Origin: Prevotella sp.
Lineage (GTDB): Bacteria > Bacteroidota > Bacteroidia > Bacteroidales > Bacteroidaceae
Assembly (NCBI GenBank): GCA_017960525.1
Contig: JAGCZA010000115.1
Location: forward strand, 1 to 42,708
Direction: 5' to 3'
DNA: 42,708 nt
Shown here: positions 1,083 to 41,195 of the stretch, in pieces
Numbering within the stretch: position 1 is the first letter of the stretch
Layout: the number at the start of each line of letters is the position of its first letter
Position numbers and translations under genes: made by a program
The notes under the pieces: model-generated
Told to the model about the DNA's origin: nothing
Database searches by the model: none
What the model saw: the letters and a program-made list of their open reading frames with translations, nothing else

Positions 1083-1946
1083 TTAATGGTTGTCTATTTT
1101 GCGTCTCACCACCTGGGTGACGCCGTTGTCGTTGTAAATGAAAGCCACTACGGCCAGATGGTCTGTCCGCCAGTCGGCTTCTGGTGTGTAGGTGTAGGTG
1201 AGCGTTGTCTTTTCGCCTCTGGCCAGGCTGATGTCTTCGCCCCAGTCGCCATTGACGGCACAGCGTAGCACGTGGTTGTGCACGTAGTCGTCATTTGGAC
1301 TGCCGTCGGGTATTTTCTGTGGTGCCGTGATGCTGTCTTCGGTGAGCCAGAGTTGCAGTTTTCCGCTGAATGCCTCGCGGGCAGCAAGTGTGACTTGAAT
1401 ATTGGGGTTGGCGGCTTCCACAAAGATATTGACGGGTGGCACAGGGAGAACTTCCAGGTCGTAACTCACCTTGGCGCTCCACCAGTCGGTGGAAAGCGGG
1501 CCGTCGCTGCGGTCAATGATGCCCATTGGCTGCACGTCGATGCCCCAGTGTTTATAGTAGGTGTCGCCCAGTTCGGTGGCCAGCCCTTGCGGGTCTTTCT
1601 CCTGTCTGACGCCCAAGGGGCCTGAGTGGATGCCTACGGGCACGATGGTCTCGCTGTCGTATTTCTTCAGCAATTGCTCAATGAGCGTAGTGGCGTTGGG
1701 GCAGTTCACGCAGTTCTGTCCTGTGTAGTCTTCAATCAGCACATGGCGGGGAATCTCTGCGAAGAAATCTACTGGCGGCTCTTCAGGGATGGTGTCGACG
1801 GTCACCGTGTCTTTCTCCACCACGTTCACCACGCGCAGCCTCTCGTCCTCGTCTATGTAGGAGCAAGCCTGGAAAGCGAGCGCTGCGCTAATGAAGAGTG
1901 AAAAGTGAAGCGTGAAGAGTATGAGGTGTAATCTGTTCTTTTTCAT
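1083..1946 (-). CDS. Omp28-like outer-membrane protein with CxxC thioredoxin fold
   Basis: A 287-residue exported protein resembling the Omp28 family of Bacteroidales. A hydrophobic N-terminus ends in LAFQAC, so Cys28 may be lipidated, although FQAC is a poor lipobox. A thioredoxin-like segment follows, with YTGQNCVNCPNATTLIE holding a CxxC pair (Cys79/Cys82), then a beta-rich C-terminal part. It sits between a DUF6029-like barrel and proB; the TlpA-like thioredoxin two genes upstream suggests a shared redox or envelope role. Part of the signal peptide (FTLHFSLF) is encoded by a 7-bp tandem repeat. The precise function is unknown; Omp28 proteins are mostly described as surface or fimbria-like outer-membrane components. 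Confidence 0.8.
   Translation of the reverse strand: MKKNRLHLILFTLHFSLFISAALAFQACSYIDEDERLRVVNVVEKDTVTVDTIPEEPPVDFFAEIPRHVLIEDYTGQNCVNCPNATTLIEQLLKKYDSETIVPVGIHSGPLGVRQEKDPQGLATELGDTYYKHWGIDVQPMGIIDRSDGPLSTDWWSAKVSYDLEVLPVPPVNIFVEAANPNIQVTLAAREAFSGKLQLWLTEDSITAPQKIPDGSPNDDYVHNHVLRCAVNGDWGEDISLARGEKTTLTYTYTPEADWRTDHLAVVAFIYNDNGVTQVVRRKIDNH
1891..1918. repeat. Heptanucleotide tandem repeat in a signal-peptide coding region
   Basis: Four head-to-tail 7-mers on the plus strand: ATGAAGA, GTGAAAA, GTGAAGC, GTGAAGA. Read on the minus strand they encode part of the hydrophobic signal segment of the Omp28-like protein. The unit matches the GTGAARA-type repeats at 7878, 8211 and 14899. Confidence 0.75.
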
Positions 1947-1957
1947 GCGGATAGAGG

Positions 1958-3685
1958 CTAAAAACTGTAGTTATAGGAAAAAGTGAAACCTCTTTGTGCG
2001 GGAATCCATCGGCACACGCCGCCGGAACAGTTGAAGCCCGCCACTGTGCGGCTGTAGCCCGCCTGGATGCGGTGTGCACCCGTGTTGAAGGTGACGAGGG
2101 CTTGGTAGTAGTGGTGGTGGGTGTTGTCTTTATGGACGGCAGGGTCGCTGTTGCCGCAGTTCCACATATCGCTGAGGGTCACCATCCAATGGGGAGCCAG
2201 CGACAACTCTGCCAGAGCGAAGAGCCAGTCGCCCTCGTCCTGCTTGGTGTTGAGGTATTGGGCTTCCATTCGCAGGGTGGTCTTTGGTGAGAACTGGTAC
2301 TTGCCGTCGGCAATGAAGATGTTGCTGTGCACCATGCCTCCCTCGCCCTCGATGACGCCCTTGTTGTAGCGCTGGTTAATATATAGGAGGTCAAGTTTGA
2401 AGGCTTTTGAGAACTTGCGTGACAGTTGGATGTCGAGGTCTTGGTAGTAGGTCTGGTCGCCCCACTTGAAGAATTTCGAGGTGTAGCCCGTGGTGCCTGC
2501 CAGGTGCATATTGGTGGTGGCGAGTGAGCCGATGGGGTCTGCGTCGGCAGTCAGCGGCTGGCGGTCCAGGGCACGCACATAGGAGTAGTTCACCTTCACG
2601 TTCATCCCGTACTTGCCTCCCAGCGGTGTCTTGCGCTTGAAGTTGTAGCCCAGTTCGGCCTGGTAGGCCCATTCGCCGTCGGCCATTTGCGTGGCGTAAG
2701 GGTAGAGTGCTGCCAGCGCGTAGGTGTGCTCTTGGGTGAAGGCCGGCAGATGGTTGATGGCCGACGAACTGCCCAGCACCGTCCGTTTGCTCTTGAACGA
2801 CATGTCCTCAGAGCGTTTGGCCTGCAAAAGCAGGCTGAGTCCTTTTTGCGAAAAAGAGGTGGAGAGCATGGCCGTGCTTCCGCGACGGTAGATGTAGCCG
2901 TTGGCCTGCGACGGGTCGTAACTTTTCTGTGCATACTCTGCGAGGACGTTCCAGGGGCCGTGGTTCAGGCTGGCCCTCACGTCCCAGGCGTTCACATACT
3001 TGGGTTGCTGCACCTGGTAGGTGACAATCTTGTAGCCTTTCTCCGTAGGCAGTTCCGCGTCGTGCTCCAGATAGTCGGGGTCTTCGCGCTTGTTCACCCA
3101 CGATGCGCCAAGGGTGAGGCGTGTGCCTTTCTGCTGCAGGGCAGGCAACCATTCGTCGATGTCCACTTCGGCATCGGCTCCGCTGACCAATCCCTTGTTC
3201 CACTCCCAGTAGTGGCGCTGGCGACCGGCCAATGCCTTCAGGCGCGTGCCGCGTGCGGGCTTCAGCAGCAGTCTGGCTCCCAGCAGCGAATTGTCGAGGC
3301 CAAGCGAGCGTTCCTCGTAGGTGCGCAGGATAAAGCCGGAGCCAAACTCCTCGTAGAATGTGCCTGCGGTCAGTTCGGCCCATTGCAACTTGCCCTTGAC
3401 ATAGAAATGGGGCACGCCCCAGCCCTTGAAGTCGCTCTCGAAGCCTGGCAGCGGGTGCTCCATATATTCCATCCTGGCGCCTGCCTCCACGTATTTGTGC
3501 TGGAGTCTCAGGTCCACGTAGGTGTTGGTCAGAAAGTCTTCTGTCTTCTCTGCCCCGATGTCGCTGTCGCTTTGCGGCAGCAGCACATCGCTATGTATGC
3601 TTCCGCTCAGAGTGACCTTGTTGTCGTTTTGTGCGCTGGCGCCGACGGCCACCAGGCAGGCCAGGACAATCGTCTGTAGTCTCAT
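1958..3685 (-). CDS. DUF6029-like outer-membrane beta-barrel protein
   Basis: A 575-residue protein with a clear signal peptide (cleavage after VGASA). The body consists of alternating polar/hydrophobic strands rich in Tyr, Trp and Gly, ending in FSYNYSF; a C-terminal aromatic residue is typical of outer-membrane barrels. The sequence resembles the Bacteroidetes DUF6029 family, usually found beside TlpA-like and Omp28-like genes as here (gaps of 4 and 11 bases). It is probably a surface barrel or porin-like protein; substrate and function are unknown. The barrel assignment rests on composition and periodicity, the family name on recall of the conserved gene order. Confidence 0.75.
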   Translation of the reverse strand: MRLQTIVLACLVAVGASAQNDNKVTLSGSIHSDVLLPQSDSDIGAEKTEDFLTNTYVDLRLQHKYVEAGARMEYMEHPLPGFESDFKGWGVPHFYVKGKLQWAELTAGTFYEEFGSGFILRTYEERSLGLDNSLLGARLLLKPARGTRLKALAGRQRHYWEWNKGLVSGADAEVDIDEWLPALQQKGTRLTLGASWVNKREDPDYLEHDAELPTEKGYKIVTYQVQQPKYVNAWDVRASLNHGPWNVLAEYAQKSYDPSQANGYIYRRGSTAMLSTSFSQKGLSLLLQAKRSEDMSFKSKRTVLGSSSAINHLPAFTQEHTYALAALYPYATQMADGEWAYQAELGYNFKRKTPLGGKYGMNVKVNYSYVRALDRQPLTADADPIGSLATTNMHLAGTTGYTSKFFKWGDQTYYQDLDIQLSRKFSKAFKLDLLYINQRYNKGVIEGEGGMVHSNIFIADGKYQFSPKTTLRMEAQYLNTKQDEGDWLFALAELSLAPHWMVTLSDMWNCGNSDPAVHKDNTHHHYYQALVTFNTGAHRIQAGYSRTVAGFNCSGGVCRWIPAQRGFTFSYNYSF

Positions 3686-3689
3686 ACCG

Positions 3690-4175
3690 CTACTTTATCA
3701 ACTCACGAACCTTCTCTATCAGTTCCGCCTCGGCGCCGTCGGTGTAGCCAATGTGCTTATAGACGATATTGCCCTTGCCGTCGCAGATGAACACGTAGGG
3801 AATCGACTGTATGCTCAAGGCTCTTTGCATATCGCCGTTAGGGTCGAGCAGCACATCGTAGTCCCAGCCTCGGTTTTCCACCAGAGGCTTTACTTTGGCC
3901 ACATTCTGCGCCTGGTCCAGGCTGATGGCGAAGATTTTCACGCCCGTCTCCTCGCGCCATTCGTCGTAAACTTCGCTGATGGCGTCCAGTTCGCGGTTGC
4001 AGGGATGGCACCAGGTGGCGAAGAAATCGACGATAAAGGGCTTTCCGCCGTTGTTGAGCGTGTCGGTGGAGACGGCCTTGCCGTTGATGTCCTTCAGGAG
4101 CACGTTAGGAAGTCGTTGTGCACTTGCTGTCGATGCCACGATGAGCATAACGAAAGCAAAAAAGAGTTTTCTCAT
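3690..4175 (-). CDS. TlpA-like periplasmic thioredoxin
   Basis: A 161-residue thioredoxin-fold protein. The start was set at 4175 (MRKLFFAF): this gives a clean signal peptide ending ASTASAQ and leaves the upstream gene intact, while the longer frame would overlap it and begin with an implausible extension. The active site WCHPC lies at residues 55-59 after PFIVDFFAT, and the cis-proline segment is IQSIPYVFICD. TlpA/ResA-type proteins reduce or isomerise disulfides in exported proteins. The gene overlaps nothing and is 4 bases from the DUF6029-like gene, so a role in maturing its envelope neighbours is a reasonable inference. Confidence 0.87.
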   Translation of the reverse strand: MRKLFFAFVMLIVASTASAQRLPNVLLKDINGKAVSTDTLNNGGKPFIVDFFATWCHPCNRELDAISEVYDEWREETGVKIFAISLDQAQNVAKVKPLVENRGWDYDVLLDPNGDMQRALSIQSIPYVFICDGKGNIVYKHIGYTDGAEAELIEKVRELIK

Positions 4176-4188
4176 AATTATGTGTTGT

Positions 4189-7062
4189 TTATTGATTGAT
4201 TCCAGCCATAATAGAAAGAATGGTGGCAATGTCGGCCACATCAGTTCTGCCGTCGCCATTCACGTCGGTATCGCCTGTCGGTATGCCTGCCATCACGCTG
4301 ATGACGGTGGCAATGTCGGCCACGTCGACTGTACCGTCCTTGTTGACATCGCCTTTCTTGTATTCAGGTTCAACGAGCGAGCGGAAGTCGTACACGCGGT
4401 TCTCCATATTCCTCAGGGCCATAACCTCAGTGAGTTTGAGGGGACGGTTATAGACAATCACATCGTCGAAGCGTGCGTCGGGCGAACCCCAGAAGGAACC
4501 ACAGCCCAGATACAACTCTTTGCTGGCCGCCAGATGGTCCACGATGCAGTTGTAGTCGAAGGCTGCCCTGGTGGAGATTGCGGTGCCGTCCTTCTCTCCT
4601 TTGTACTTGTCGTTCTTGGTCGTCGTGCCATTGATATAGACGGTCACGCCTCCTGATGAAGAAGTGGCACTACGCGAGAAGACGATGGTGACGAGGTTCC
4701 ATTGGCCAACAGCGATATTGTTGGTCTCAACCGTCGAAGGATGGTTGATGTCGAGCCATTTGCCGTTGCCGTCGTTGAAGCCCGTGTAGGTGTTGCCCGT
4801 CATATAGAGGCGGGCATTGCCGTTGACGAAGCCATAAAGGCCGTCCCAGAGATTGTTGTCGGTGCGCTTTACCCAGAACGAGAGGGTGGCACCGTCTTCC
4901 AAAGTCTGTCCGTAGAGTGGATTGGGCATACTGACGTAACTCTCCTTGCCATTGGCGCCGAAGTTCAGGTGCACCACATTGCCCATACGCATGGGGTCAC
5001 CCTCTTCCATTGCTGGTATGGCGGTGGTGCTGTTGCGTTTCAGTTCTGCAACTTGGGTGGCATCGAAAGTGTTGGAGAGTTCTTCGCCGTCGAAGCCGTA
5101 GTGGGCCAGCATACCTGTCTTCCAGTCGGCTGAGGGCTGGGCGTTCTCTGCACACAGCGCTTTCACGGTATAGTCCTGAGTCCAGAAGTAGCCTGGCGTT
5201 TCCAGTCTTGCCGTGAGCGTCACCTCTGTGTCTTCGCTGATGACGTAGGGGTTGTATTTGCCGTAGTCGGAAATGACTTCGGGCAGACTGCTCTTCCAGT
5301 TCAAGGTCACGTTGTCCCTGTCGAGGAGCATATCGTAGAGGTAGGCGTCGCGCTGGAAGGTGGCGTTGTTGGTCACCGGCACCTTCTGCTTGTTCAACTG
5401 CCAGGCCAGGGCATACTTGGGATGATATTTGTAGCCCCATACATTGACCCCGCTGTTAGCCATTGCCGTAAAGGCGATGGCCTGTATGCTGATGCCGTCC
5501 ATCTGCTCAACGACGAGCACACCATTGTAGTTGATGCCGCCCAACTTGATGGTGAAGTAACTGGTGCCGGCCTCGCGGCTCCACGTGCCTTTGTAGTCGC
5601 CAGTCACGGTTCCGTCGGCGTTCAGCGTAATGCTGGCGGGCGTCACCTCCTCCATATTCTCGTAGTCCATCTTGTACTTGTGGATCAGCAGATGGTAAGT
5701 GCCAGGGATGTGTCCTGCCTCCACCAGTTCTGTTGTGGCCACGTCTTGGTCGGTGGTTGTCTCACCATTATACTCGAAAGGAGCCGCCACCAGCCAGCCG
5801 TTCTTGTTGAGGAACACCTGGTGGGTGCGCACTTGGTGGCCGATGGTGCCATTGTTGAACTTGGTGTGGTAAACCAGATAGGTGCGGCCGTCGTTGGCGG
5901 CAATGATGCTGTTGTGGCCCTGTGCACACTCGCCCACGGTCATCGTGCCCCACTGGTTGTAGGCCCCCATTATCTTCTCTCCACGGTTGTCGGTGCCAGC
6001 CCCGAAGTTCTTCACCCACGAGGTGAAAATGGCCGAGCGGCTCTGCGCGTCCTTGTAGGGACCGTTGGGCTTCTCCGAGCGGAACACGCGCATCTCGTAG
6101 CCGCCGTCGGGAGCGAAGCCGCCATAACTGACAAACAGGTAGTAGTAGTTGCCGATGTGCTCGATGTAGGGGCCTTCGCCCGACACGTAGTAGCCGCCGC
6201 CAATCTTGGTGCCGAAGTAGGGGTCGCTGGTTACGCCGTCGCTTGAGCCGTTGGTCGAGGGGTAGACCACGTCGTAGTCGCGCAGACCTGTCGTTTCGTC
6301 GAGTTCGAGCATCCAGATACCGCCGCTCCACGAGCCGTAGACGAGCCACAACTTGCCCTCCTCGTCGTAGAAGACAGCGGGGTCGATGGTGTGCGGCCAT
6401 CGGTTGCCCCACTTGCTACCCACATTGTAGCGTGACGGCAGCGACGACTGTTTACCGATGGCCAGTTCCAGGTCGGTGTCCTTATATGAGTGGCCACTAT
6501 CTTGGAAACCGCAGATGACCACCGGCCCTTGGTAAAGGTACGGCCCTGTAACCTTGTCGGCGGTGAGCAGGATGATGCTGGAATGCCAGGCGTCGCCGTT
6601 GATGCTCAAATACATACACCACTTCTGCATTGTTTCGTTCCAGATGACGTCGGGGGCCCACATATTGCCGTCGATGTTGTAACCGGCATCGGTTCGTGCC
6701 GACCACTCCATCGCGTCGAACTGCGGGAAGTCAGTCTCCACGCCACCCTTCATCACCTTCTTCACAGCAGGGGTGACAAAGGCGACAGAGTTGGCGGCAT
6801 TGGTGTTGGAGCCAGCCTTCCACGTGGGATTGGCCTGCGTCCAGTTCTGGAAATCGGTGGTGTAGGCTCCTACTTTGTGCGAACCAAAGATATAATGACG
6901 CCCTGTGCTGTGGTCGTAAACCACCGACGGGTCGTGTATGCTTCTGCGTGTCTTGCTGGTTTCCTTGTAGAGGGCTTTCGCTTCAGCCGTAGTAACTTCA
7001 GTCTGTGCATTTGCTGTCAGGCCCACTAAGGCTCCAAGCAGCAGGAAAATGATTCGTCTCAT
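4189..7062 (-). CDS. GH43 arabinan-type glycoside hydrolase with LamG and dockerin-like tail
   Basis: A secreted 957-residue multidomain enzyme. After a signal peptide (about 1-19, LTANAQ) comes a five-bladed GH43 module (about 40-430). It has the expected catalytic triad: HDPSVVY (Asp44, base), TIDPAVFYDEEG (pKa-modulating Asp) and SGEGPYIEHIGNYYYL (general acid Glu). A GH43-associated beta domain (about 440-547), an atypical Big-like module (about 555-645, with LNWKSSLPEVIS) and a LamG/concanavalin-like domain (about 650-882) follow. The C-terminus holds two calcium-loop repeats, DVNKDGTVDVADIATVIS and DVNGDGRTDVADIATILS, which look like a type I dockerin. It probably cleaves arabinan or arabinoxylan side chains. 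It leads the minus-strand run that ends in proB. Substrate specificity cannot be read from sequence alone. Confidence 0.88.
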   Translation of the reverse strand: MRRIIFLLLGALVGLTANAQTEVTTAEAKALYKETSKTRRSIHDPSVVYDHSTGRHYIFGSHKVGAYTTDFQNWTQANPTWKAGSNTNAANSVAFVTPAVKKVMKGGVETDFPQFDAMEWSARTDAGYNIDGNMWAPDVIWNETMQKWCMYLSINGDAWHSSIILLTADKVTGPYLYQGPVVICGFQDSGHSYKDTDLELAIGKQSSLPSRYNVGSKWGNRWPHTIDPAVFYDEEGKLWLVYGSWSGGIWMLELDETTGLRDYDVVYPSTNGSSDGVTSDPYFGTKIGGGYYVSGEGPYIEHIGNYYYLFVSYGGFAPDGGYEMRVFRSEKPNGPYKDAQSRSAIFTSWVKNFGAGTDNRGEKIMGAYNQWGTMTVGECAQGHNSIIAANDGRTYLVYHTKFNNGTIGHQVRTHQVFLNKNGWLVAAPFEYNGETTTDQDVATTELVEAGHIPGTYHLLIHKYKMDYENMEEVTPASITLNADGTVTGDYKGTWSREAGTSYFTIKLGGINYNGVLVVEQMDGISIQAIAFTAMANSGVNVWGYKYHPKYALAWQLNKQKVPVTNNATFQRDAYLYDMLLDRDNVTLNWKSSLPEVISDYGKYNPYVISEDTEVTLTARLETPGYFWTQDYTVKALCAENAQPSADWKTGMLAHYGFDGEELSNTFDATQVAELKRNSTTAIPAMEEGDPMRMGNVVHLNFGANGKESYVSMPNPLYGQTLEDGATLSFWVKRTDNNLWDGLYGFVNGNARLYMTGNTYTGFNDGNGKWLDINHPSTVETNNIAVGQWNLVTIVFSRSATSSSGGVTVYINGTTTKNDKYKGEKDGTAISTRAAFDYNCIVDHLAASKELYLGCGSFWGSPDARFDDVIVYNRPLKLTEVMALRNMENRVYDFRSLVEPEYKKGDVNKDGTVDVADIATVISVMAGIPTGDTDVNGDGRTDVADIATILSIMAGINQ

Positions 7063-7084
7063 GGTCAGTATCAGTTTTTGCGTG

Positions 7085-7265: not shown

Positions 7266-9590
7266 ATGATAAACAAGGAATTGCTGAAAGTGTCGTTACG
7301 GCAGCGGGCGCTCTATTTGCCGCAGACTGCCGCTGTAGGGGCAGGCCAAGTGCCAGGCCGCATAGAAGTGACGGGTCAGACGCTCGCACTCGTCGTTGAG
7401 TTGCGCAAACTGGGCTTTGCCCTTAGTGAAGAGGCTCTGCGTGCCGTCAATGAACTCGACGAAACAGACCGCGAGGTGCTGCTCGACGTGGTGAACGAGG
7501 TGATGGGCACCCACTTGAACTGGGCGTCGCTGGTACGTGGCTGGCTGGTGCCCACGGGTGAGACCTTGGCCGACCACTTTGCCACCTTCATCGCCAACTT
7601 GCTGCCCGAAGAGGAGCGGCGGCAGATTTCAGGCACCACGCTGCCCTGTGGACACTTCATCCCTGACGGCACATTCCCATTGGAGCGTTACAACGGCTGC
7701 CCTTTCTGCGGTACACCTTTCCGCACGGCAAACTTCAACTACAAGGGTCAAGGCTCCAAACTGCGCCTGCTGGAACTATGGGGTGACAAGCAGATGGAGG
7801 CCTTCTTCCAAGACCTGCTCCTCTCGCCCGTCCCTCTCGACGCCACCCAGCGCGAGTCGCTCAAGAAGATGCTTGACTCCTCACTTTTCACTCTTCACTC
7901 TTCACTTTTCACTGGCGTAGCGCAAAAAGAGACCCGTATGCTGGTGATTGATGAACTGGTGAACCGTGGACTTGACGATGAGGCTGGCAAACTCTTCTCC
8001 ACGCCCAACGACGTGCTGCGCTATCTGTGGTACCGTCATACAGGGCACGTACAACTGCTCAAGCCCTCCACCTTATTATATATACAATACAAGAACCACC
8101 GCCACGAGTGCACCACGCAGGAGGGCCAGGAGACCGTGGCAAAGGCATTGAAGCAGCAGTTACGCCTGAAGTACAGCCGCCCCTGGTGCTACCGTGTAGC
8201 CCGTTGGCTGAATACACTTCTCACCTCACACCTCTCACCTCTCACCTCTCACTTAGAATCCATGCACCCTCGTCGTGAAATGTGGGTGCGCTTCATACGC
8301 GCTTTAAGGTTGGCCGAATATGCCCGCCGACCTGGCTTCGAGCCGCTGGCCGAACTGCTCGACCGCTTCTATCGTCGCGACTATACAGTATGGCAGGGGA
8401 GGGTAGACCGCGCCCTCGGAAAAGCCGACCGCCAGGCCACACTTCAGTTGCTCAGCCAGCGGCCCGGCCTCTTCGCCCGATGCCTTTTCTCCACAATGCT
8501 CACCTTTGGCAAAGAGCCAGTCGTCGAGGCCTTCCGCAAGGTGCTGCCACAGTTGCCCGTGCGCCTGCTCGTCACGCTCGGTTCCCAGGCGACACTCTAT
8601 TTCGACCGCGACCAACAGCGACTGGCACGCACATTAAGCGGTATGGTGAAACGTCTGCCCCCTCATCCCCTGCTGGCCCACTACAACGACGAGCAGCTGG
8701 AACAGATGATACTGGCTGTCACCCACCTTTATCTGGAGGCTATGCAACAGCATTTCGCTTCCTCATTCCCCGCCTCTGAAGGGGAGGGGCAGGGTAACCG
8801 CACTATTTACATCGCCCCTCAACTCTATCACATCCCCGTAGCCGTTGGCGACCGCCAGACAACCGTGCAGAGTGATTCCTCCGCTCTGATGGGCGAGCAG
8901 ATTCCTGTGACAGGCGACAGCGTCCGTCTCTTCCTGCAATGGGGACAAGGCTTGCCCGCACAGCACCTCGATATGGACCTGAGTTGCCTTGTCGTCACCG
9001 CTAAAGAGAGTTATGTCTGCTCTTATTTCAACCTGACAGCCCCAGGCGCACGCCATTCGGGCGACATCCAGCGCATACCCGATATGGTGGGCACGGCAGA
9101 GTACATCGAACTGTCATTGCCAGAGTTGGAAGCCTTTGGCGCCCAGCGTGTGGTGTTCACTTGCAACGCCTACACGGCTGGAAAACTCTCGCCTAACCTG
9201 ATGCTGGGCTGGATGTCGGCGGAAAAGCCTATGACCGTCAGCGATGACACGGGCGTAGCCTATGACCCATCGACTGTCGACCATCTCGTGCGCATCACGG
9301 AGAGCAACCTCTCCAAGGGGCTCGTCTTCGGCGTCCTGGAAGTGAAGCAAAGGGCTGTCACCTGGCTCGAAATGCCTTTTGACGGCCAGACCATCAGCAA
9401 TCTCTCGGCAGAAAACGTCGACACCCTCCTGCGCAGACTAAACGCAAAGCCCACCATCGGCCAGGTACTCGACATCAAGGCCCAGGCCCAACACCTCACA
9501 CCCACGGACTCTCCCGAAAAAGCCGACGAAGCCTACACCCTGGAGTGGGCAAGAAACACCGCCAATGTAAGCCGCCTCCTGCTCGCCTGA
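7266..9590 (+). CDS. RING-finger protein with C-terminal TerD-like domain (MXAN_6230/SCO0854-like)
   Basis: A 774-residue cytoplasmic protein without signal or membrane segments. A treble-clef/RING-like zinc site lies near residues 128-148: LPCGHFIP, then LERYNGCPFCGTPF (Cys128, His130, Cys145, Cys148). A long helical middle follows, and the C-terminal ~230 residues resemble TerD-type beta-sandwich domains (LDMDLSCLVV, RVVFTCNAY). The order matches the MXAN_6230/SCO0854 RING family, linked by comparative genomics to tellurite-type stress systems; no experimental function is known to me. No ter genes lie nearby. Three internal segments are encoded by repeats (about 204-215, 317-328 and 499-510) and look like tolerated insertions. 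Start at ATG 7266, preceded by its own promoter and hairpin leader. Confidence 0.72.
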   Translation: MINKELLKVSLRQRALYLPQTAAVGAGQVPGRIEVTGQTLALVVELRKLGFALSEEALRAVNELDETDREVLLDVVNEVMGTHLNWASLVRGWLVPTGETLADHFATFIANLLPEEERRQISGTTLPCGHFIPDGTFPLERYNGCPFCGTPFRTANFNYKGQGSKLRLLELWGDKQMEAFFQDLLLSPVPLDATQRESLKKMLDSSLFTLHSSLFTGVAQKETRMLVIDELVNRGLDDEAGKLFSTPNDVLRYLWYRHTGHVQLLKPSTLLYIQYKNHRHECTTQEGQETVAKALKQQLRLKYSRPWCYRVARWLNTLLTSHLSPLTSHLESMHPRREMWVRFIRALRLAEYARRPGFEPLAELLDRFYRRDYTVWQGRVDRALGKADRQATLQLLSQRPGLFARCLFSTMLTFGKEPVVEAFRKVLPQLPVRLLVTLGSQATLYFDRDQQRLARTLSGMVKRLPPHPLLAHYNDEQLEQMILAVTHLYLEAMQQHFASSFPASEGEGQGNRTIYIAPQLYHIPVAVGDRQTTVQSDSSALMGEQIPVTGDSVRLFLQWGQGLPAQHLDMDLSCLVVTAKESYVCSYFNLTAPGARHSGDIQRIPDMVGTAEYIELSLPELEAFGAQRVVFTCNAYTAGKLSPNLMLGWMSAEKPMTVSDDTGVAYDPSTVDHLVRITESNLSKGLVFGVLEVKQRAVTWLEMPFDGQTISNLSAENVDTLLRRLNAKPTIGQVLDIKAQAQHLTPTDSPEKADEAYTLEWARNTANVSRLLLA
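7878..7912. repeat. Heptanucleotide tandem repeat inside the RING/TerD-like gene
   Basis: Five adjacent 7-mers: TCCTCAC, TTTTCAC, TCTTCAC, TCTTCAC, TTTTCAC. Translated they give a low-complexity Ser/Leu/Phe/Thr/His stretch (SSLFTLHSSLFT) that breaks the surrounding helical sequence. The reverse complement is the GTGAARA unit seen at 1891 and 14899. Confidence 0.8.
8211..8252. repeat. Second heptanucleotide repeat inside the RING/TerD-like gene
   Basis: Six units in 7-bp register: AATACAC, TTCTCAC, CTCACAC, then three perfect CTCTCAC. They encode LLTSHLSPLTSH. The reverse complement unit is GTGAGAG, a sister of the GTGAARA unit. Confidence 0.8.
8766..8795. repeat. G-rich palindromic insert in coding sequence
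   Basis: CCCC(G)CCTCT, a short loop, then GGGGAGGGGCAGGG. It encodes ASEGEGQG and resembles the insert at 24301 in the receptor gene, which encodes SSREGQG in the same reading frame. Confidence 0.55.
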
Positions 9591-14041: not shown

Positions 14042-14902
14042 ATGAATACAATGAAAAAACTATTATTATTTGCAGCCTGCATCCTCACTTTGGGTGCCTG
14101 CAACGAAAGCGTGAACAAGCGCGAAAGTGTCGACCTGAACCAGAAAATCGACTCGCTCACAAGGGTCAATATCCAGAAGGACAACGAGATTAACGACATG
14201 CTGGAGACCTTCAATACCATCGAGGAGGGCTTCCGCGCCATCAATGAGGCACAGGATCGTGTCACTCTGGAGCGAAGGGGCGAGGGTGTCGACGCCAACG
14301 AGCGCATCAGGGAGAACATGCAGTTCATCCAGGAGACCCTGAGTCAGAACAAGGAACTCATCAACAAACTGCGCCGGAGCCTCAGACAGAGTAGCGTTGC
14401 CAGTGAGCAGATGAAAAAGACGCTGGAGAACCTGACCAAGCAGTTCGCCGAAAAAGAGTCGGAACTGGCCGCCCTGCGCAGCGAGTTGGAGGAGAAGGAC
14501 ATCCACATTGCCGAACTGGACGAGATGGTGGCCTCGCTGTCGGAAGACGTGGCCTCGCTGCGTGACGAAAGCGACCAGAAAACAGAGACCATCAACACCC
14601 AGGACAGGGAGCTGAATACGGCATGGTATGTCTTTGGCACCAAGAACGAACTCAAGGAGCAGAATATCCTAAAGAGCGGCGAGGTGCTGCAGTCCAATTT
14701 CAACAAGAACTATTTTACCAAGATTGACATTCGGGTGGACAAGGAAATCAAGCTGATGTCACGCGATGCCAAGCTGCTCACCAACCATCCCACGGGCAGT
14801 TACACTCTGGACCGCGACGCCAATAAGCAGTATGTGCTGCGCATCACCAATCCCCAGCAGTTCTGGGGCACCAGTCGCTATCTGGTTATTCAGGTCAAGT
14901 GA
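14042..14902 (+). CDS. Coiled-coil lipoprotein of unknown function
   Basis: A 286-residue predicted lipoprotein: signal MNTMKKLLLFAACILTLGAC with a good lipobox (LGAC, Cys20). Residues about 30-185 form a long heptad-patterned coiled coil rich in Glu, Lys and Leu. The C-terminal ~90 residues (from AWYVFGTKNELKEQNIL) look like a compact beta domain. I know of no assigned function; the layout resembles periplasmic spacer or adaptor lipoproteins. A second possible start codon is at 14051. The stop codon at 14900-14902 lies inside a 7-bp tandem repeat that continues into the ftcD start. Confidence 0.82.
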   Translation: MNTMKKLLLFAACILTLGACNESVNKRESVDLNQKIDSLTRVNIQKDNEINDMLETFNTIEEGFRAINEAQDRVTLERRGEGVDANERIRENMQFIQETLSQNKELINKLRRSLRQSSVASEQMKKTLENLTKQFAEKESELAALRSELEEKDIHIAELDEMVASLSEDVASLRDESDQKTETINTQDRELNTAWYVFGTKNELKEQNILKSGEVLQSNFNKNYFTKIDIRVDKEIKLMSRDAKLLTNHPTGSYTLDRDANKQYVLRITNPQQFWGTSRYLVIQVK

Positions 14903-14940
14903 TAAGTGAAAAGTGATAGGTGGATGATGAAAAGTGACCG
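14899..14940. repeat. Heptanucleotide repeat spanning a stop codon and the next start codon
   Basis: Six units in 7-bp register: GTGATAA, GTGAAAA, GTGATAG, GTGGATG, ATGAAAA, GTGACCG. They contain the lipoprotein stop codon, a Shine-Dalgarno-like AGGTGG (14918-14923) and three possible ftcD starts (GTG 14906, ATG 14924, ATG 14927). Confidence 0.8.
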
Positions 14941-33624: not shown

Positions 33625-33627
33625 CCA

Positions 33628-33662
33628 AATGACGAAATGAGAAATGAAAAATGAAAAATTTG
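33628..33662. repeat. AAATGAA heptanucleotide repeat, left arm of an inverted pair
   Basis: Five 7-bp units after the stop codon: AATGACG, AAATGAG, AAATGAA, AAATGAA, AAATTTG. The mirror-image repeat is at 33680-33707 (CAAATTT, TTCATTT, TTCATTT, TTCGTTT). Confidence 0.75.
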
Positions 33663-33698
33663 CAGACGCTCTGTCTAATCAAATTTTTCATTTTTCAT
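33644..33698. terminator. Bidirectional hairpin between convergent genes
   Basis: A 19-bp perfect inverted repeat (33644-33662 with 33680-33698) and a 17-base loop, A-rich on one arm and T-rich on the other. It separates the lipoprotein operon from RNase G and can terminate both. Confidence 0.7.
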
Positions 33699-33715
33699 TT
33701 TTCGTTTGCAAATAG

Positions 33716-35293: not shown

Positions 35294-35336
35294 TCTTTTT
35301 TCTCTTGCTGTTGTTTTAAAGTAGTACTAACAAAGA

Positions 35337-35387: not shown

Positions 35388-35412
35388 CCATTCTTCTTCT
35401 CGGCATCAGAGC

Positions 35413-35502: not shown

Positions 35503-35556
35503 AATTGTAAAGATGTTTTGTGTATGATGTGTAATGAATTACTTAGTTTCCCGCGT

Positions 35557-35838: not shown

Positions 35839-35881
35839 AATTATTAAGTGCTTATAAAGTGTAATTCAAAAATTTAGGCTG

Positions 35882-35889
35882 CAAAGGTA
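35882..35889 (-). promoter_or_regulatory. -7 element of the HU gene
   Basis: Minus-strand TACCTTTG, 43 bases before the HU start. The -33 site 20 bases upstream (35910-35913, TTTT) is a three-of-four match. Confidence 0.65.
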
Positions 35890-35969
35890 CTCATTTTCAG
35901 TCTGATAAGAAAATATTTTTAGATTTTTTTTCTAATCAGGGTGCATTTTCCTGTTTTTCCCCTTCTTTA

Positions 35970-36668: not shown

Positions 36669-36698
36669 GGTCGTATCCCTGTTTTTGGGGTCTCTTTT

Positions 36699-36786
36699 TT
36701 TGGTTCGTCCTTTCTGGTAGTTTGGTTCGTCCAAACTCCCACTTTGGTTCGTCCAAACTATGAGTTTGGTTCGTCCAAATTTTTAG
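36699..36786. repeat. 22-bp tandem array of palindromes
   Basis: TTTGGTTCGTCC occurs at 36699, 36721, 36743 and 36765, exactly 22 bases apart. In copies 2-4 it is followed by AAA, completing the palindrome TTTGG-N5-CCAAA (extended AGTTTGG/CCAAACT in copy 2). The ten spacer bases differ among copies. It lies 31 bases upstream of the ABC ATPase start and about 165 bases before the miaB promoter. Confidence 0.9.
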
Positions 36787-36951
36787 GCCGGTCCACTTCG
36801 GGTCTGCAAAATTAGTCAAAAAAGGCGTAAGTCGGGGCCACAGGCTGCAAATCTCCTCTTCTTTTAAGCATTTTTTAGGGTTTGCCGCCTGCTTATCGCT
36901 AAATAGCATTAAATCGGAAGTCAAAGTTGCGCTTTTTTGTCCGATAATTCG
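36787..36951. other. Intergenic stretch between the palindromic array and the miaB promoter
   Basis: No gene or clear signal is seen; together with the array and promoter it completes the 311-base divergent interval between the ABC ATPase and miaB. Confidence 0.6.
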
Positions 36952-36959
36952 TAATTTTG
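36952..36959 (+). promoter_or_regulatory. -7 element of miaB
   Basis: TAATTTTG followed by CAGCG, 20 bases before the ATG at 36980. The best -33 candidate (GTTG at 36926) is at 22-base spacing. Confidence 0.6.
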
Positions 36960-36979
36960 CAGCGTCAATCAACAAGACT

Positions 36980-38305
36980 ATGAAACATCTTTATATTGAG
37001 ACCTACGGCTGTCAGATGAATGTGGCCGACTCCGAGGTGGTCGCCTCCGTGATGAAAATGGCTGACTACGAGACCTGCGAAACCATCGACGGGGCCGATG
37101 CCGTCTTTCTGAACACCTGCTCCGTGCGCGACAATGCCGAGCAGAAAATCATCCACCGGCTGGCAGAATTGCGAAGCCTGAAGTCGAAGAGGCCCTTTCT
37201 CATCGGCGTGCTGGGCTGTATGGCCGAGCGCGTGAAGGAGTCGCTGCTCAACGACCATGGTGCCGACATCGTGGCTGGACCTGACAGCTACCTGTCGCTC
37301 CCGCATCTGGTGGCTCAGGCCGAAATGGGTCAGAAAGCCATCGACGTGGAGTTGTCGGCTACAGAGACCTATCGCGACGTGGTGCCCCAGCGTATGAGCA
37401 TAGGCCGGAGCATTGGCGGCTTTGTCAGCATTATGCGAGGCTGCAACAATTTCTGCCACTACTGCATAGTGCCCTATACACGCGGGCGTGAGCGCAGCCG
37501 CGACGTGGACAGTATATTAAAAGAGGTGTGCGATCTGCGCGACCGAGGTTACAAAGAGGTGACCCTGCTCGGGCAGAATGTCAATTCCTACAGGGCCACA
37601 GACGAGCGTCAGCCTCAGACAGCCGTCGACTTCCCCCAACTGCTGCGCCTTGTGGCCGGACAGGCACCAGAAATGCGCGTCCGCTTCACCACCTCGCATC
37701 CAAAGGATATGAGCGACGAGACGCTTCACGTCATTGCCGAAACGCCCAACGTCTGCCCCCACATCCATCTGCCCGTGCAGAGCGGTTCCAACCGCATACT
37801 GCAACTGATGAACAGAAAATACACACGCGAGTGGTATCTGGGGCGTGTGGAAGCCATTCGCCGCATCATTCCTGCTTGCAGCATCACCACCGACATCTTT
37901 GTGGGCTATCACTCGGAAACCGAGGAAGACCACCAACTCTCGTTGAGCCTCATGCGCGAGGTGGGTTACGATGCCGCCTTTATGTTCAAGTACAGCCAAC
38001 GGCCAGGCACCTACGCCTCCAAGCATCTGCCCGACGACGTGCCCGAAGAGGTGAAGTTGCGTCGCCTGAACGAGATGATTGCTCTGCAGACGGAGATTTC
38101 CGCCCAGCAGAACCGCAAGGACGAGGGCCAAGAGTTCGACGTGCTGGTAGAGGGCTTCTCCAAGCGCAGTCGTGAGCAACTCTGCGGACGGACCGGGCAA
38201 AACAAGATGGTCGTCTTCGACAAGGGGGCGCATCATATTGGGGAGACCGTGCGCGTCAGAATCACAGGCAGCACCAGCGCCACACTCTTCGGTCAAGCCC
38301 TTTGA
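36980..38305 (+). CDS. miaB: tRNA-2-methylthio-N6-dimethylallyladenosine synthase
   Basis: Radical-SAM methylthiotransferase that modifies i6A37 in tRNAs reading UNN codons. The 441-residue protein has the N-terminal MTTase domain with its three cluster cysteines (YGCQMNVADSE, FLNTCSVRDNAEQK, GVLGCMAERVKE), the radical-SAM motif CNNFCHYCIVPYTRGRERSR (CxxxCxxC) and a C-terminal TRAM domain (about 375-440). The neighbouring tRNA-Ser(GCT) reads AGY codons and is not a usual target, so the adjacency is probably chance. A T-rich/A-rich inverted stem (about 38308-38338) may terminate it. Confidence 0.95.
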   Translation: MKHLYIETYGCQMNVADSEVVASVMKMADYETCETIDGADAVFLNTCSVRDNAEQKIIHRLAELRSLKSKRPFLIGVLGCMAERVKESLLNDHGADIVAGPDSYLSLPHLVAQAEMGQKAIDVELSATETYRDVVPQRMSIGRSIGGFVSIMRGCNNFCHYCIVPYTRGRERSRDVDSILKEVCDLRDRGYKEVTLLGQNVNSYRATDERQPQTAVDFPQLLRLVAGQAPEMRVRFTTSHPKDMSDETLHVIAETPNVCPHIHLPVQSGSNRILQLMNRKYTREWYLGRVEAIRRIIPACSITTDIFVGYHSETEEDHQLSLSLMREVGYDAAFMFKYSQRPGTYASKHLPDDVPEEVKLRRLNEMIALQTEISAQQNRKDEGQEFDVLVEGFSKRSREQLCGRTGQNKMVVFDKGAHHIGETVRVRITGSTSATLFGQAL

Positions 38306-38307
38306 AC

Positions 38308-38338
38308 GCTTTTTTCGTCCTTTCCGAGAAAAAAAACG
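38308..38338 (+). terminator. Weak inverted repeat after miaB
   Basis: CGCTTTTTTCG and CGAGAAAAAA pair imperfectly across TCCTTTC. No T-run follows the second arm, so termination is uncertain. Confidence 0.35.
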
Positions 38339-38345
38339 TGAAAAA

Positions 38346-38377
38346 TTTGCAGGGAATAAAAAATAGTTGTACCTTTG
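38346..38377 (+). promoter_or_regulatory. Promoter of tRNA-Ser
   Basis: TTTG (38346-38349), 20 bases, TACCTTTG (38370-38377), then CACCC. The primary transcript would carry about 43 bases before the mature tRNA. Confidence 0.75.
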
Positions 38378-38426
38378 CACCCGCGTTTGAGAGAAAACGC
38401 TTTTTGGCGGACAAATCGGAAGCCAG

Positions 38427-38516
38427 GGAAGTTTGGGTGAGTGGCTGAAACCAGCAGTTTGCTAAACTGCCGTACGGGTTCCCGTACCGGGGGTTCGAAT
38501 CCCCCAGCTTCCGCCA
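38427..38516 (+). tRNA. tRNA-Ser (anticodon GCT)
   Basis: Acceptor GGAAGTT (38427-38433) pairs with AGCTTCC, discriminator G, encoded CCA (38514-38516). The anticodon stem-loop is GCAGT-TTGCTAA-ACTGC with anticodon GCT, reading AGC/AGU. The T-arm is GGGGG-TTCGAAT-CCCCC. A long class II variable arm (about 38471-38489) confirms a serine tRNA. A terminator follows directly. Confidence 0.95.
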
Positions 38517-38528
38517 AAACCAGTAAAG

Positions 38529-38555
38529 AGAGAGCTGAACAAGCTCTCTTTCTTT
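38529..38555 (+). terminator. Terminator after tRNA-Ser
   Basis: AGAGAGCT (38529-38536) pairs with AGCTCTCT (38542-38549), 5-base loop, followed by TTCTTT. Confidence 0.75.
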
Positions 38556-38648
38556 ATGCCCGTTTCCTTGTCGGGCCCGAAAATCAGCCCCTTACCGTCA
38601 AACAGCGTTAATAATCCAAAATCTTTTCGCTGTTTCATCTTTATTTTG

Positions 38649-38656
38649 TACCTTTG
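38649..38656 (+). promoter_or_regulatory. -7 element of pheT
   Basis: TACCTTTG followed by CACCC; the -33 site (TTTTC near 38624) is partial. The leader to the pheT ATG is about 43 bases and T/A-rich. Confidence 0.65.
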
Positions 38657-38704
38657 CACCCAAGTTTTTTAACAGTAAACATCTATATCGTAAAACAAGA
38701 GAAG

Positions 38705-41152
38705 ATGAACATTTCTTATAAATGGCTGAAGGAGTACGTTGACTTCGACCTCACACCACAACAGGTGTGCGACGCACTGACCTCCACTGGCTTGGAGGTG
38801 GACTCTTTGGAAGAGGTGCAGTCTGTCCGTGGCGGGCTGAAAGGGCTTTATGTGGGCAAGGTGCTCACCTGCGAGTTGCACCCCAACAGCGACCATCTGC
38901 ATGTGACGACGGTAGACCTCGGACGGGGCGAGCCGTCGCAAATTGTATGCGGCGCGCCCAATGTGGCTGCCGGACAGAAGGTTATCGTGGCCGATTTGGG
39001 CTGCGTGCTCTACGACGGCGACCAGGAGTTCCAAATCAAGAAGTCGAAACTGCGCGGCGTGGAGTCGTGCGGTATGATTTGTGCCGAGGACGAGATTGGC
39101 GTAGGCACCTCACACGAGGGCATCATCGTTTTGCCTGACGATGCTGTCGTCGGCACTCCTGCTGCTGAATACTATCATTTAGAGAGCGACTGGCTCATCG
39201 AGATTGACATTACGGCCAACCGCGCCGACGCCCTGTCGCATTGGGGTGTGGCCCGCGACCTTTATGCCTGGCTGCATCAGAACGGCTATGAGACCAGCCT
39301 CCATCGTCCTGCCGTCAGTAGTTTTGCTGCTGACAACAACGACCTCCCCATCGATGTGGTCATCGAGAACTCGGAGGCCTGCCGTCGCTATGCCTGCGTG
39401 AGCGTCACCGGCTGCGAGGTGAAGGAGAGTCCCGACTGGCTGAAGAACAAACTGACCACCGTGGGCCTGCGTCCTATAAATAATATTGTAGACATCACCA
39501 ACTATATTATGATGGCCTACGGTCAGCCCCTGCATACCTTCGATGCCGATATGGTGAAAGGCAATAAGATTGTGGTGAAGACTATGCCCGAGGGCACGCC
39601 TTTCGTCACCCTCGACGGTGTGGAGCACAAACTGAGCGACCGCGACCTGGCCATCTGCAATGTTGAGGACCCGATGTGCATCGCCGGCGTGTTTGGCGGC
39701 AAGGGCAGCGGCACCTATGAGACCACCAGGAACGTGGTGCTTGAAAGCGCTTATTTCCACCCCACGTGGATTCGCAAGTCCGCCCGTCGTCACGGTCTCT
39801 CGACCGATGCCTCGTTCCGTTTCGAGCGCGGGATCGACCCCAATGGCGTCATCTACGCCCTGAAGCAGGCCGCCCTGATGTGCAAGGAGTTGGCCGGCGG
39901 CAAAATATCAATGGAGATTTGCGACAAATACCCGTCACCCATCGAGAACGCAAAGGTGGACTTGAAGTACAACTATGTGCACAGCCTCGTGGGAAAGGAC
40001 ATTCCTGTGGAGGCCATCAAGGGCATCTGCGAAAGCCTTGAAATGAAGGTGCTGAAGGAGGATGCCGAGGACCTGCTGCTGGAAGTTCCCGCCTATCGTG
40101 TGGACGTGCAGCGCCCCTGCGACGTGGTGGAGGACATCCTGCGCATCTACGGCTACAATAATGTGGAGATTCCCACGCAGTTGAAGTCGTCGCTTGTCAT
40201 CAAGGGCGACGAAGACCGCAAGCACAAACTGCAGAACTTGGTCTCGGAGCAACTCGTCGGTGCCGGCTTCAACGAAATCCTGAACAACTCGTTGAGTAAG
40301 TCGTCATATTATGACGACAAACAGGATGTGGTCCGCATTATGAACCCACTCTCCAGCGACCTCGGTGTGATGCGCCAGACGCTGCTCTACGGTGGACTGG
40401 AGAGCGTCGAGTACAACGTGAAGCGCAAGGCCGCCAACCTCCGCTTCTTCGAGTTCGGCAACTGCTATTTCTTCGACCCTGAGAAGCAGAATGACGACGA
40501 CCCTATGCAGGCCTACAAGGAGGAGAACTATATGGGCATCTGGATGACCGGCAAGCGTGTGGAAGGCTCTTGGGCACATCCCAACGAGGACAGCAGTTAC
40601 TATGAACTGAGCGCCCACGTGCAGAATATCCTTGCCCGCATCGGTATGAAGCCTGGTCAGTTGGTGACCAAAAAGAGTGAGAATCCCTGGTTCTCCGCTG
40701 GTGTGACCATCGAGAACCGTGGTGGCAAGAAGTTCATTGAGATGGGCATCCTGTCCAAGAAACTGCTGAAGCAGTTCGACCTCACCCAGCCCGTTTATTT
40801 CGCCGAGTTGAACTGGACGCAACTGATGAAGGCCACGAAGAAGAGCGAGGTGACCTTCACCGACATTCCCAAGCAGCCCGCCGTCAGCCGTGACCTCGCC
40901 CTGCTCGTGGACAATGCTGTGGAGTTCGCCCAGATAGAGCAGATTGCTCGTCAGAGCGAGAAGAAACTGCTGAAGCGCGTCGAACTCTTCGACGTCTATG
41001 AGGGCAAGAACCTGCCTGCCGGCAAGAAGTCGTATGCCGTCAACTTCATCCTCCAGGACGAGGAGAAGACCATGAACGACAAGCAGATTGACGCCATTAT
41101 GCAGAAACTCATCGCCAACCTGAAGAAACAACTCAACGCAGAACTAAGGTAA
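38705..41152 (+). CDS. pheT: Phenylalanine-tRNA ligase beta subunit
   Basis: Beta chain of the alpha2-beta2 synthetase that charges tRNA-Phe. The start was set at ATG 38705 (MNISYKWLKEYVDFDL), which agrees with the family; the longer frame would begin within the promoter. Domains in the 815-residue protein: EMAP-like tRNA-binding (about 38-155, VGKVLTCELHPNSDHLHVTT), B3/B4 editing (about 205-380), B5 (about 400-475), catalytic-like core (about 490-690) and C-terminal FDX-ACB anticodon-binding (about 720-815). No pheS is adjacent, as usual in Bacteroidetes. Followed by yebC. Confidence 0.97.
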   Translation: MNISYKWLKEYVDFDLTPQQVCDALTSTGLEVDSLEEVQSVRGGLKGLYVGKVLTCELHPNSDHLHVTTVDLGRGEPSQIVCGAPNVAAGQKVIVADLGCVLYDGDQEFQIKKSKLRGVESCGMICAEDEIGVGTSHEGIIVLPDDAVVGTPAAEYYHLESDWLIEIDITANRADALSHWGVARDLYAWLHQNGYETSLHRPAVSSFAADNNDLPIDVVIENSEACRRYACVSVTGCEVKESPDWLKNKLTTVGLRPINNIVDITNYIMMAYGQPLHTFDADMVKGNKIVVKTMPEGTPFVTLDGVEHKLSDRDLAICNVEDPMCIAGVFGGKGSGTYETTRNVVLESAYFHPTWIRKSARRHGLSTDASFRFERGIDPNGVIYALKQAALMCKELAGGKISMEICDKYPSPIENAKVDLKYNYVHSLVGKDIPVEAIKGICESLEMKVLKEDAEDLLLEVPAYRVDVQRPCDVVEDILRIYGYNNVEIPTQLKSSLVIKGDEDRKHKLQNLVSEQLVGAGFNEILNNSLSKSSYYDDKQDVVRIMNPLSSDLGVMRQTLLYGGLESVEYNVKRKAANLRFFEFGNCYFFDPEKQNDDDPMQAYKEENYMGIWMTGKRVEGSWAHPNEDSSYYELSAHVQNILARIGMKPGQLVTKKSENPWFSAGVTIENRGGKKFIEMGILSKKLLKQFDLTQPVYFAELNWTQLMKATKKSEVTFTDIPKQPAVSRDLALLVDNAVEFAQIEQIARQSEKKLLKRVELFDVYEGKNLPAGKKSYAVNFILQDEEKTMNDKQIDAIMQKLIANLKKQLNAELR

Positions 41153-41153
41153 C

Positions 41154-41195
41154 AAATAGAAAATCGAAAATAAGTAAATCGTAAATCAAAATGGG
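41154..41195. repeat. AAATCGA-type heptanucleotide repeat over the yebC start
   Basis: Six 7-bp units between the pheT stop and the yebC ATG: AAATAGA, AAATCGA, AAATAAG, TAAATCG, TAAATCA, AAATGGG. The last contains the yebC start codon (41191). The register is exact although the units vary. Confidence 0.65.

Follow-up and report, generated by a model that had tools for sequence, protein, structure and literature searches.

Tandem repeats with a period of 7 bases recur along a 42,708-nucleotide stretch of a Prevotella sp. genome, hereafter the window, which is the whole of contig C51 in an assembly of 146 contigs and 3.97 Mb. The closest named FTCD relatives are mostly Prevotella, many of them from rumen, and the source is probably a rumen Prevotella. 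The tracts probably represent arms, copied singly or as pairs, of a small element built around an IVP gene, which encodes a member of the PF05635/TIGR02436 family of four-helix-bundle or S23 proteins of 23S rRNA intervening sequences (about 110–130 amino acids). A complete element consists of a tandem array with a unit of 7 or 8, sometimes 9–11 bases, the IVP gene and the same array inverted, and it lies between neighbouring genes, often within operons. We observe this architecture in Prevotella, in cyanobacteria and on one Gemmatimonadota plasmid, together with unit families shared by arms and dispersed tracts, a clustering of array periods and polymorphism at the occupied sites; arms and complete elements are predicted to form long hairpins.

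Tandem arrays flank IVP genes in Prevotella

The source genome contains 11 PF05635 matches, all above the cut-off, which by our count correspond to nine gene copies and a broken tenth. TIGR02436 was matched by all eight IVP proteins of this genome that were scanned, and three of the eight resemble Avd of diversity-generating retroelements in weak matches to the Avd model (E 2.8e-6 to 1.4e-8) with scores far below its cut-off. One of the proteins matches the PDB entry 2rld (E 1e-32) and, marginally, 2gsc (XCC0516, E 0.067), both entries comprising five chains.

We analyzed the flanks of 39 genes, namely nine copies of the source genome (one with an in-frame stop) and the best-scoring 30 copies of its relatives; the broken tenth copy (L208/L210), with inverted-arm scores of 8 and 7, was left out. 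All 39 genes are flanked by tandem arrays (p ≤ 0.01 against shuffles), which lie on both sides of 33 genes and form inverted arms (score ≥ 12) at 35. The period of the arrays is 8 at 23 genes, 7 at 11, 9 at three, 10 at one and 11 at one. Among control genes, both-sided arrays were found at 5 of 62 genes of similar size from the source genome, of which two are IVP and two GxxExxY genes, and at none of 33 RING/FTCD loci of relatives.

An Rfam scan of 26 IVP loci gave no match, so no rRNA is present there and the flanks are protein genes, named here from their translations (for example frdA/frdB, etfA/acyl-CoA dehydrogenase and serC/serA). A location in 23S rRNA had first been assumed for the conserved flanks of 14 relatives' loci and was abandoned when Rfam returned nothing and the translations read as frdA/frdB. 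On contig C19 of the source genome, two IVP copies with 72% DNA identity lie about 1.8 kb apart (L019, 11990–12456 and 13917–14321), one of them with an in-frame stop.

Inverted arrays were also seen at two of the three near-complete GxxExxY genes of the source genome (PF13366/TIGR04256, PD-(D/E)XK-like), with periods 9 and 10; at the loci L304 (1400–1884) and L305 (1440–1900) the arrays are ACGGATTAA (period 9) and a 10–11-base GCGGACT unit. A gene-less inverted pair of ACGGATT 9-mers in the genome G140 (L249, 10436–10529) is similar to these GxxExxY arrays. Since GxxExxY genes have inverted arrays as well, the design with flanking inverted arrays may be used by more than one gene family.

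Dispersed tracts share unit families with the arms of local IVP genes

To sample the source genome, 61 stretches totalling 943 kb were scanned, which hold 98 N-free period-7 tracts; 14 of these stretches are the window or contigs chosen as known carriers of pattern matches, while 47 were chosen by contig number alone. A tract was counted as matching when it scored at least 16 to a period-7 IVP arm of the source genome. By this measure 68 of 89 non-arm tracts of the source genome match one of its own IVP arms, compared with 33 of 115 at the named Prevotella loci (Fisher p 1e-11); for the tracts of two other genomes the counts are 2 of 9 (G140) and 2 of 14 (G068). When only stretches chosen regardless of matches are considered, 25 of 39 tracts match an own arm (p 1e-4).

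Distant loci also have stretches of unit order in common. Runs of four mixed units are shared within 13 pairs of loci separated by more than 700 bases; 500 shuffles of the unit order gave 3.8 such pairs on average and never more than 12. For runs of three mixed units the figures are 41 pairs against 26.2, and 4 of the 500 shuffles reached 41. The dispersed extragenic inverted doublets match gene-flanking repeats of their own genome, and many further tracts are single rather than doublets.

Neighbouring tracts form inverted pairs with predicted hairpins

In the sample of the source genome, 26 neighbouring tract pairs lie less than 600 bases apart, where 6.7 were expected. The inverted pairs among them all run in one direction, with 13 forward-then-reverse and none reverse-then-forward, and the units match in 11 of the 13. 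At the named Prevotella loci, 21 neighbouring pairs compare with 6.9 expected. Four inverted pairs have loops of 360–445 bases, and each of these encloses a four-helix-bundle (IVP) gene. For short-loop pairs, including the one at 33628–33707 of the window, strong hairpins are predicted (z −5.9 to −8.4). Overall, the predicted folds of the arms are long hairpins (z −4.5 to −8.4), and long terminal stems are predicted for complete elements.

Abundance of period-7 tracts and their placement relative to genes

The original prediction had made the existence of a repeat family depend on period 7 being commoner than other periods, and this is the case: the 47 unselected stretches hold 43 period-7 tracts in 640 kb, corresponding to 67 per Mb, whereas no other period between 5 and 13 exceeds 12.5 per Mb. 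A third-order Markov simulation (one run, first 361 kb) produced no period-7 tract. The densities of period-7 and period-8 tracts are 104 and 7 per Mb in the source genome (a part-selected sample), 37 and 24 in G068 with 10 IVP matches, 22.5 and 15 in G140 with six, and 2.5 and 0 in G024, which has no IVP match. Three successive GTGANNA units were searched for in 200 Prevotella genomes, which have between 0 and 278 matches; the pattern is present in 123 of them, comprising 117 of the 175 genomes with an IVP match and 6 of the 25 without one (p 9e-5, with clade and completeness uncontrolled); five unlisted IVP-negative genomes were identified by elimination. Viral contigs gave 15 pattern matches, with no IVP relative among them.

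Compared with random placement, as had likewise been proposed, the position of the tracts relative to gene ends is non-random. With genes called by a simple codon-usage script, predicted genes contain 34 of the 98 sampled tracts, and the remaining 64 fall into gaps or over gene ends; 85 and 13 were expected. Within genes, 29 of 34 tracts are oriented such that TGA falls on the antisense strand and the sense strand stays free of it. TGA is on the sense strand in 19 of the 25 co-directional tracts overlapping a gene end, and the wholly intergenic co-directional tracts show no preference (six sense, nine antisense, six neither).

The bias towards gene ends is what would be expected if the tracts were selected signals kept at gene junctions, either because the NTGA core, in which GTG, TTG or ATG overlaps TGA, provides a start and a stop in each of the three frames once per 21 bases, or because it binds a translational regulator. 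The 19 of 25 sense-strand TGA counts fit such signals as well, and MacGregor 2015 reports for one genome that the majority of TAACTGA repeats are located immediately ahead of start codons. However, purifying selection and open-frame geometry predict the same bias, a sense tract near a gene end creates a stop by definition, the intergenic tracts are indifferent to orientation, and the units AAATCGT and the cyanobacterial GGGAGTA and AAAAGCT hold no TGA. We therefore consider selected signals very improbable as the origin of the tracts. A reading of the NTGA core as a stop-start linker was given up for similar reasons, as the orientation counts follow from the geometry of open frames and TGA is absent from several unit families.

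The two tracts inside the gene at 7266–9590 of the window reveal how a tract is accommodated in a coding region. Both are absent from all 23 homologues compared (26 other genomes gave matches, some of them only short). Each tract takes the place of about 9–11 native residues, and the net gain is 3–5 residues (9–15 bases), mostly four (12 bases), which is therefore a replacement and not an addition of 7n bases.

These observations bear on the possibility that the tracts are ordinary heptanucleotide microsatellites, expanded by polymerase slippage in 7-base steps, and that IVP genes just happen to be located in non-coding DNA prone to slippage. In the Mrazek 2007 survey, heptanucleotides rank first among long simple repeats in most genomes, for which an idea of polymerase contacts has been offered (excerpts of PMC4679880 and PMC4692102), and period-7 tracts do occur far from IVP genes. 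In the Coxiella intervening sequence, three tandem heptamers (GACAGAT) adjoin the S23p open reading frame and their number differs by one between strains (excerpts of PMC4990558), which also speaks against an origin of tracts as element arms. Slippage alone, however, does not account for arms that are matched and inverted within the source genome, for the period-8 arrays accompanying other IVP clades, for mixed runs shared by distant loci beyond every shuffle, for the in-gene replacements, for the low density in the IVP-less genome G024 or for the scarcity of both-sided arrays at control genes. Slippage had been among the causes suggested originally; as the sole cause it is unlikely given the matched inverted pairs, the shared mixed runs and the replacements, although it may still shape the length of a tract.

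IVP genes on plasmids of cyanobacteria carry similar arrays

PF05635 is present in 90 of the 118 Bacteroidota genomes drawn. A tblastn search against plasmids returned 29 records with IVP relatives, mostly from Nostocales, and the IVP genes of 14 of these records were examined, 13 of them cyanobacterial and one from Gemmatimonadota. All 14 genes carry arrays, with period 7 in 12 and period 8 in two; the arrays are both-sided at 13 and inverted at 11. Of 45 control genes on four of the same plasmids, two have both-sided arrays; both lie on the Nostoc ATCC 53789 piece, and one is the gene directly upstream of the element.

Solo tracts on 50-kb pieces of these plasmids resemble the arm of the local element, which is matched by 16 of 24 tracts compared with 1 of 24 for a foreign arm. 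The local matches divide into 9 of 9 in Nostoc ATCC 53789, 3 of 8 in N. edaphicum, 4 of 6 in P. galeata and 0 of 1 in Anabaena 90. On the Gemmatirosa piece no additional period-8 tract occurs, and most of its tracts have period 9.

The plasmid sites include nrdB/nrdA, with the IVP gene on the opposite strand, as well as CRISPR operons. An IVP element lies between cas6 and cas4 of type I-D operons twice, in Anabaena sp. 90 (L329) and Pseudanabaena galeata (L336), and between cas10 and the Cmr3 gene (cmr3) of a type III-B operon in Picosynechococcus (L332). Taken as a contrast, the avd gene of an Anabaena plasmid retroelement (L342, 10109–10539) shows a period-7 tract (TTGGTAA) on one side only, namely at its end; a near-identical tract adjoins cas genes in P. 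galeata (L345, 25076).

Array period follows the IVP tree and occupied sites are polymorphic

On a tree of the 39 Prevotella IVP proteins, the array period needs nine changes, whereas shuffled periods average 14.3 and no shuffle out of 200 came as low. Protein identity and arm similarity go together (Mantel 0/500, rho 0.34), a relation confounded by shared sites.

The gap between serC and serA, 427 bases long in the source genome, is filled there by the L204 element. In all 20 relatives examined the element is absent and the gap spans 7–174 bases, which is too short for an IVP gene. Two relatives, G096 (L313) and G134 (L318), have another kind of insert in this gap, about 150 bases long and with inverted ends of the GGGAGGG type. 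At the frdA-frdB site, the flanks of G004 and G102 are 92–93% identical, while their IVPs are 53% identical and their arms differ; gene and arms have changed together here.

Both sites are informative for a reversed order of events, in which IVP elements land in pre-existing tracts and the tracts, as their target, spread by recombination among themselves. Across 21 genomes an IVP gene is found in the serC-serA gap of the source genome only, and a short tandem tract occupies this gap in 11 of the 18 relatives whose gap has sufficient length for the test (period 7 in five, period 8 in three, longer in three, with differing units). Three genomes (G109, G117 and G136) have tracts and no IVP match. 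Yet insertion into one tract would leave direct halves, not inverted ones; period and unit go with the IVP lineage, shared sites contributing; and gene and arms have changed jointly at frdA-frdB. Hence, we regard pre-existing target tracts as a distinctly unlikely origin and retain the tracts as copies of element arms.

Tracts without a gene next to them were also seen beyond period 7. The period-8 AGTTGACR tracts of G068 resemble the arms of its IVP copy L218, with no IVP detected nearby, and the AGTTGACR pattern occurs in 35 of 200 genomes.

The tracts of the window match several families of IVP arms

Tandem Repeats Finder and a lag scan confirmed 7-base tandem repeats at all the places of the window where the original prediction had put them. 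Seven of 24 Tandem Repeats Finder rows have period 7 (1892–1920, 7872–7913, 8215–8252, 14897–14922, 33627–33659, 33683–33707 and 41154–41192). The lag scan found six period-7 tracts and at most one tract for each other period up to 30, except 14 (two) and 21 (four). Within the window, the tracts enclose no open reading frame of the 23S_rRNA_IVP family, and they were compared with the arms found elsewhere in the genome, using as null random windows, which can overlap tracts.

The first tract (1891–1920, plus strand, GTGAAGA/GTGAAAA family, no gene partner) matches the arm of L206 with a score of 24.0 (null 95% 8.5, maximum 17). In minus-strand reading, the tract supplies most of the signal-peptide core LILFTLHFSLFISAALAF encoded by an Omp28-like gene (1083–1946), which has an Omp28 PF11551 match. 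Both tracts inside the gene 7266–9590 lie on the minus strand. The one at 7872–7913 (GTGAAGA family) runs stop-free through the reading frame as DSSLFTLHSSLFT, adds a net 3–5 residues in place of the 9–11 of homologues and matches L206 with 24.5 (null 95% 9.5; the null maximum of 26 arises because random windows can overlap tracts). The one at 8211–8252 (GTGAGAG family), with a net gain of four residues, matches L200 with 26.0 (maximum of 150 null windows 11.0).

A further tract on the plus strand (14895–14940, GTGATAA/GTGAAAA, one end decayed) spans the stop of the gene 14042–14902 and reaches the start region of a formiminotransferase gene (start 14906 or 14924, end 16606); its best arm, L206, is matched weakly with 14.0 (null 95% 9.5). 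Between two convergent genes lies a gene-less inverted pair of the ATGARAA family, the left arm of which (33628–33662, plus strand) matches L207 with 22.5 (null maximum 12) and the right arm (33680–33707, minus strand) with 17.5 (null maximum 10). The pair as a whole (33628–33707) has an inverted score of 20 and a predicted hairpin of −35 kcal/mol (z −7.3). Finally, the unstranded AAATCGA/AAATCGT tract at 41154–41195 fills the gap between the gene 38654–41152 and a gene starting at 41191 or 41245 and ending at 41922; its best arm is L209 with a weak 13.5 (null maximum 12.0). An exact 7-base register had been claimed for it and is not found, the tract being imperfect (76% matches and 8% indels in Tandem Repeats Finder).

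Taken together, the seven window tracts find their best matches in four IVP-arm families (L206, L200, L207 and L209), two of these matches being weak. Of the unit drift at constant period that had been described, the constant period is borne out; the drift dissolves into a mixture of families, since the tracts match different IVP arms. Similarly, the view that a process rather than one mobile copy generated the repeats is right in that constant spacing with changing sequence points beyond a single mobile copy, and needs amending in that there are several families, most of them also found as inverted IVP arms in this genome, instead of one drifting family.

A second class of repeats is present at 36690–36780 of the window and, among other places, in L003, L004, L006 and L014. 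It comprises about three copies of a 22-base unit made of a palindromic core, TTTGGTTCGTCCAAAC, and a short variable spacer. In our sample of the source genome, 42 of 50 such arrays are intergenic, seven partial and one coding, and other Prevotella genomes, including the IVP-negative G024, have 22-base arrays with quite different palindromes.

Comparison with known systems

The elements resemble the 23S rRNA intervening sequences of Leptospira and Coxiella, which contain an open reading frame of the 23S_rRNA_IVP family, measure about 430 bases and have terminal inverted repeats in a long stem. IVP/S23 proteins are described as having no known function, and a Xanthomonas member of the family as a homopentamer (PMC4990558). 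Unlike the intervening sequences, the elements lie between protein genes (the 26 loci without Rfam match), and their arms are whole tandem arrays with matching arrays dispersed over the genome.

A second parallel is the REPIN/RAYT system (PMC3116915), where a gene is likewise flanked by repeats of a type dispersed in the genome, inverted pairs are predicted to form hairpins and several families occur per genome. By analogy, IVP may act as the partner of the repeats in a REPIN/RAYT-like arrangement. In contrast to that system, the arm is a tandem heptad or octad array and not a REP sequence, and the partner is a four-helix bundle and not a Y1 transposase. No Y1 (HUH) REP-associated transposase flanked by repeats was found in the source genome; its only PF01797 match (C28:1268–1489) is on a contig with a single detected period-7 tract, and that tract is over 5 kb away (L029).

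The original prediction knew no standard annotation class for the repeats. Heptanucleotide repeats have in fact been described as STRR in cyanobacteria, as GGGAATC in Xanthomonas and as TAACTGA in Beggiatoaceae (PMC4692102, PMC4679880), and share with our tracts the period of 7 and the intergenic bias. In Xanthomonas the repeats have variable unit positions and form 70–75 convergent inverted pairs per genome, and heptanucleotide repeats are said to be generally not associated with mobile elements (PMC4692102). Term checks of PMC4679880 and PMC4692102 found no mention of S23 or four-helix bundles, and among the results listed by searches of the open literature, with subscription papers outside their scope, no paper connected IVP genes with tandem arrays outside rRNA. 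In the present data, arrays of this type flank 13 cyanobacterial plasmid IVP genes.

Observations weighing against element arms

Several findings count against the interpretation of the tracts as arms of an IVP element. One-sided arrays are found at controls too, with p ≤ 0.01 at 14 of 62 genes of the source genome, because this genome is rich in tracts, at 10 of 33 RING/FTCD loci of relatives and at 9 of 45 plasmid control genes. The 30 loci of relatives are not independent, as 14 lie between frdA and frdB and six between etfA and the acyl-CoA dehydrogenase gene; with the further shared sites L200/L238 and L221/L225, about 20 distinct sites remain among the 39. Since these loci share sites, vertical inheritance explains part of the tree signal. 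Among the tracts of the source genome 21 of 89 match no local arm, and on the plasmids 8 of 24 do not; of those that do match there, many are less than 2 kb from the element. At the named Prevotella loci a weaker pair rule applies, with seven forward-reverse against two reverse-forward pairs and lower unit similarity.

The distribution across genomes is likewise uneven. Some IVP-negative genomes, mostly drafts, contain tracts, such as GTGANNA in G018 (25) and G136 (13). The prediction of where AGTTGACR should occur gave a mixed outcome: 158 matches in G110, 38 in G068 and 13 in G070, and one in G026 and none in G016 and G004. The pattern also occurs 30–42 times in each of five unpredicted genomes (G009, G028, G029, G103 and G146), whose further IVP arms were not read, and in two of the 25 IVP-negative genomes (G109 twice, G209 once). 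The corresponding prediction for AAGGTTWT failed: of the five genomes in which a known IVP arm carries such a unit, four gave no match and G181 only the arm itself; AAGGTTWT was found in seven of 200 genomes, five times each in G110 and the IVP-negative G117. Transposition, excision, target duplication and binding of the protein to the repeats were none of them observed.

A model for the spread of the arrays

We nevertheless favour the interpretation as element arms and propose the following sequence of events. The IVP protein would recognise the repeats at a fixed register, which in this proposal is why the spacing is kept while the sequence changes; five-chain crystal entries and the homopentamer reported in PMC4990558 suggest that a ring of subunits might serve as the ruler. 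In the transcript, the hairpin would behave as 23S rRNA intervening sequences do, possibly with excision by RNase III. Copies of the hairpin, with or without the gene, could spread to new sites, perhaps as RNA by way of a reverse transcriptase or as single-stranded DNA, and would leave behind single arms and pairs that lack the gene, much as REPIN/RAYT systems do. Selection would remove copies that damage genes, and this could be the reason for the intergenic bias and the stop-free orientation within genes.

More tentatively, and at somewhat less than even probability, the heptad and octad tracts of Bacteroidota, cyanobacteria and probably other phyla may all be arms or footprints of one class of element spread with the aid of IVP proteins, whose subunit ring would read one repeat per subunit and thereby hold the period constant under changing sequence. 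The 23S rRNA intervening sequences would then be the members located in rRNA, and the heptanucleotide repeats of cyanobacteria and Xanthomonas would be scattered arms.

Heptanucleotide repeats have so far been ascribed to polymerase slippage or unknown regulation. Since the IVP family carries flanking arrays in every copy tested, it offers a concrete handle on the origin of these repeats. In turn, the IVP/S23 proteins gain a context, and rRNA intervening sequences, cyanobacterial repeats and Bacteroidota repeats are joined in one testable model. If this model is true, it may explain the scattering of such repeats through many bacterial genomes.

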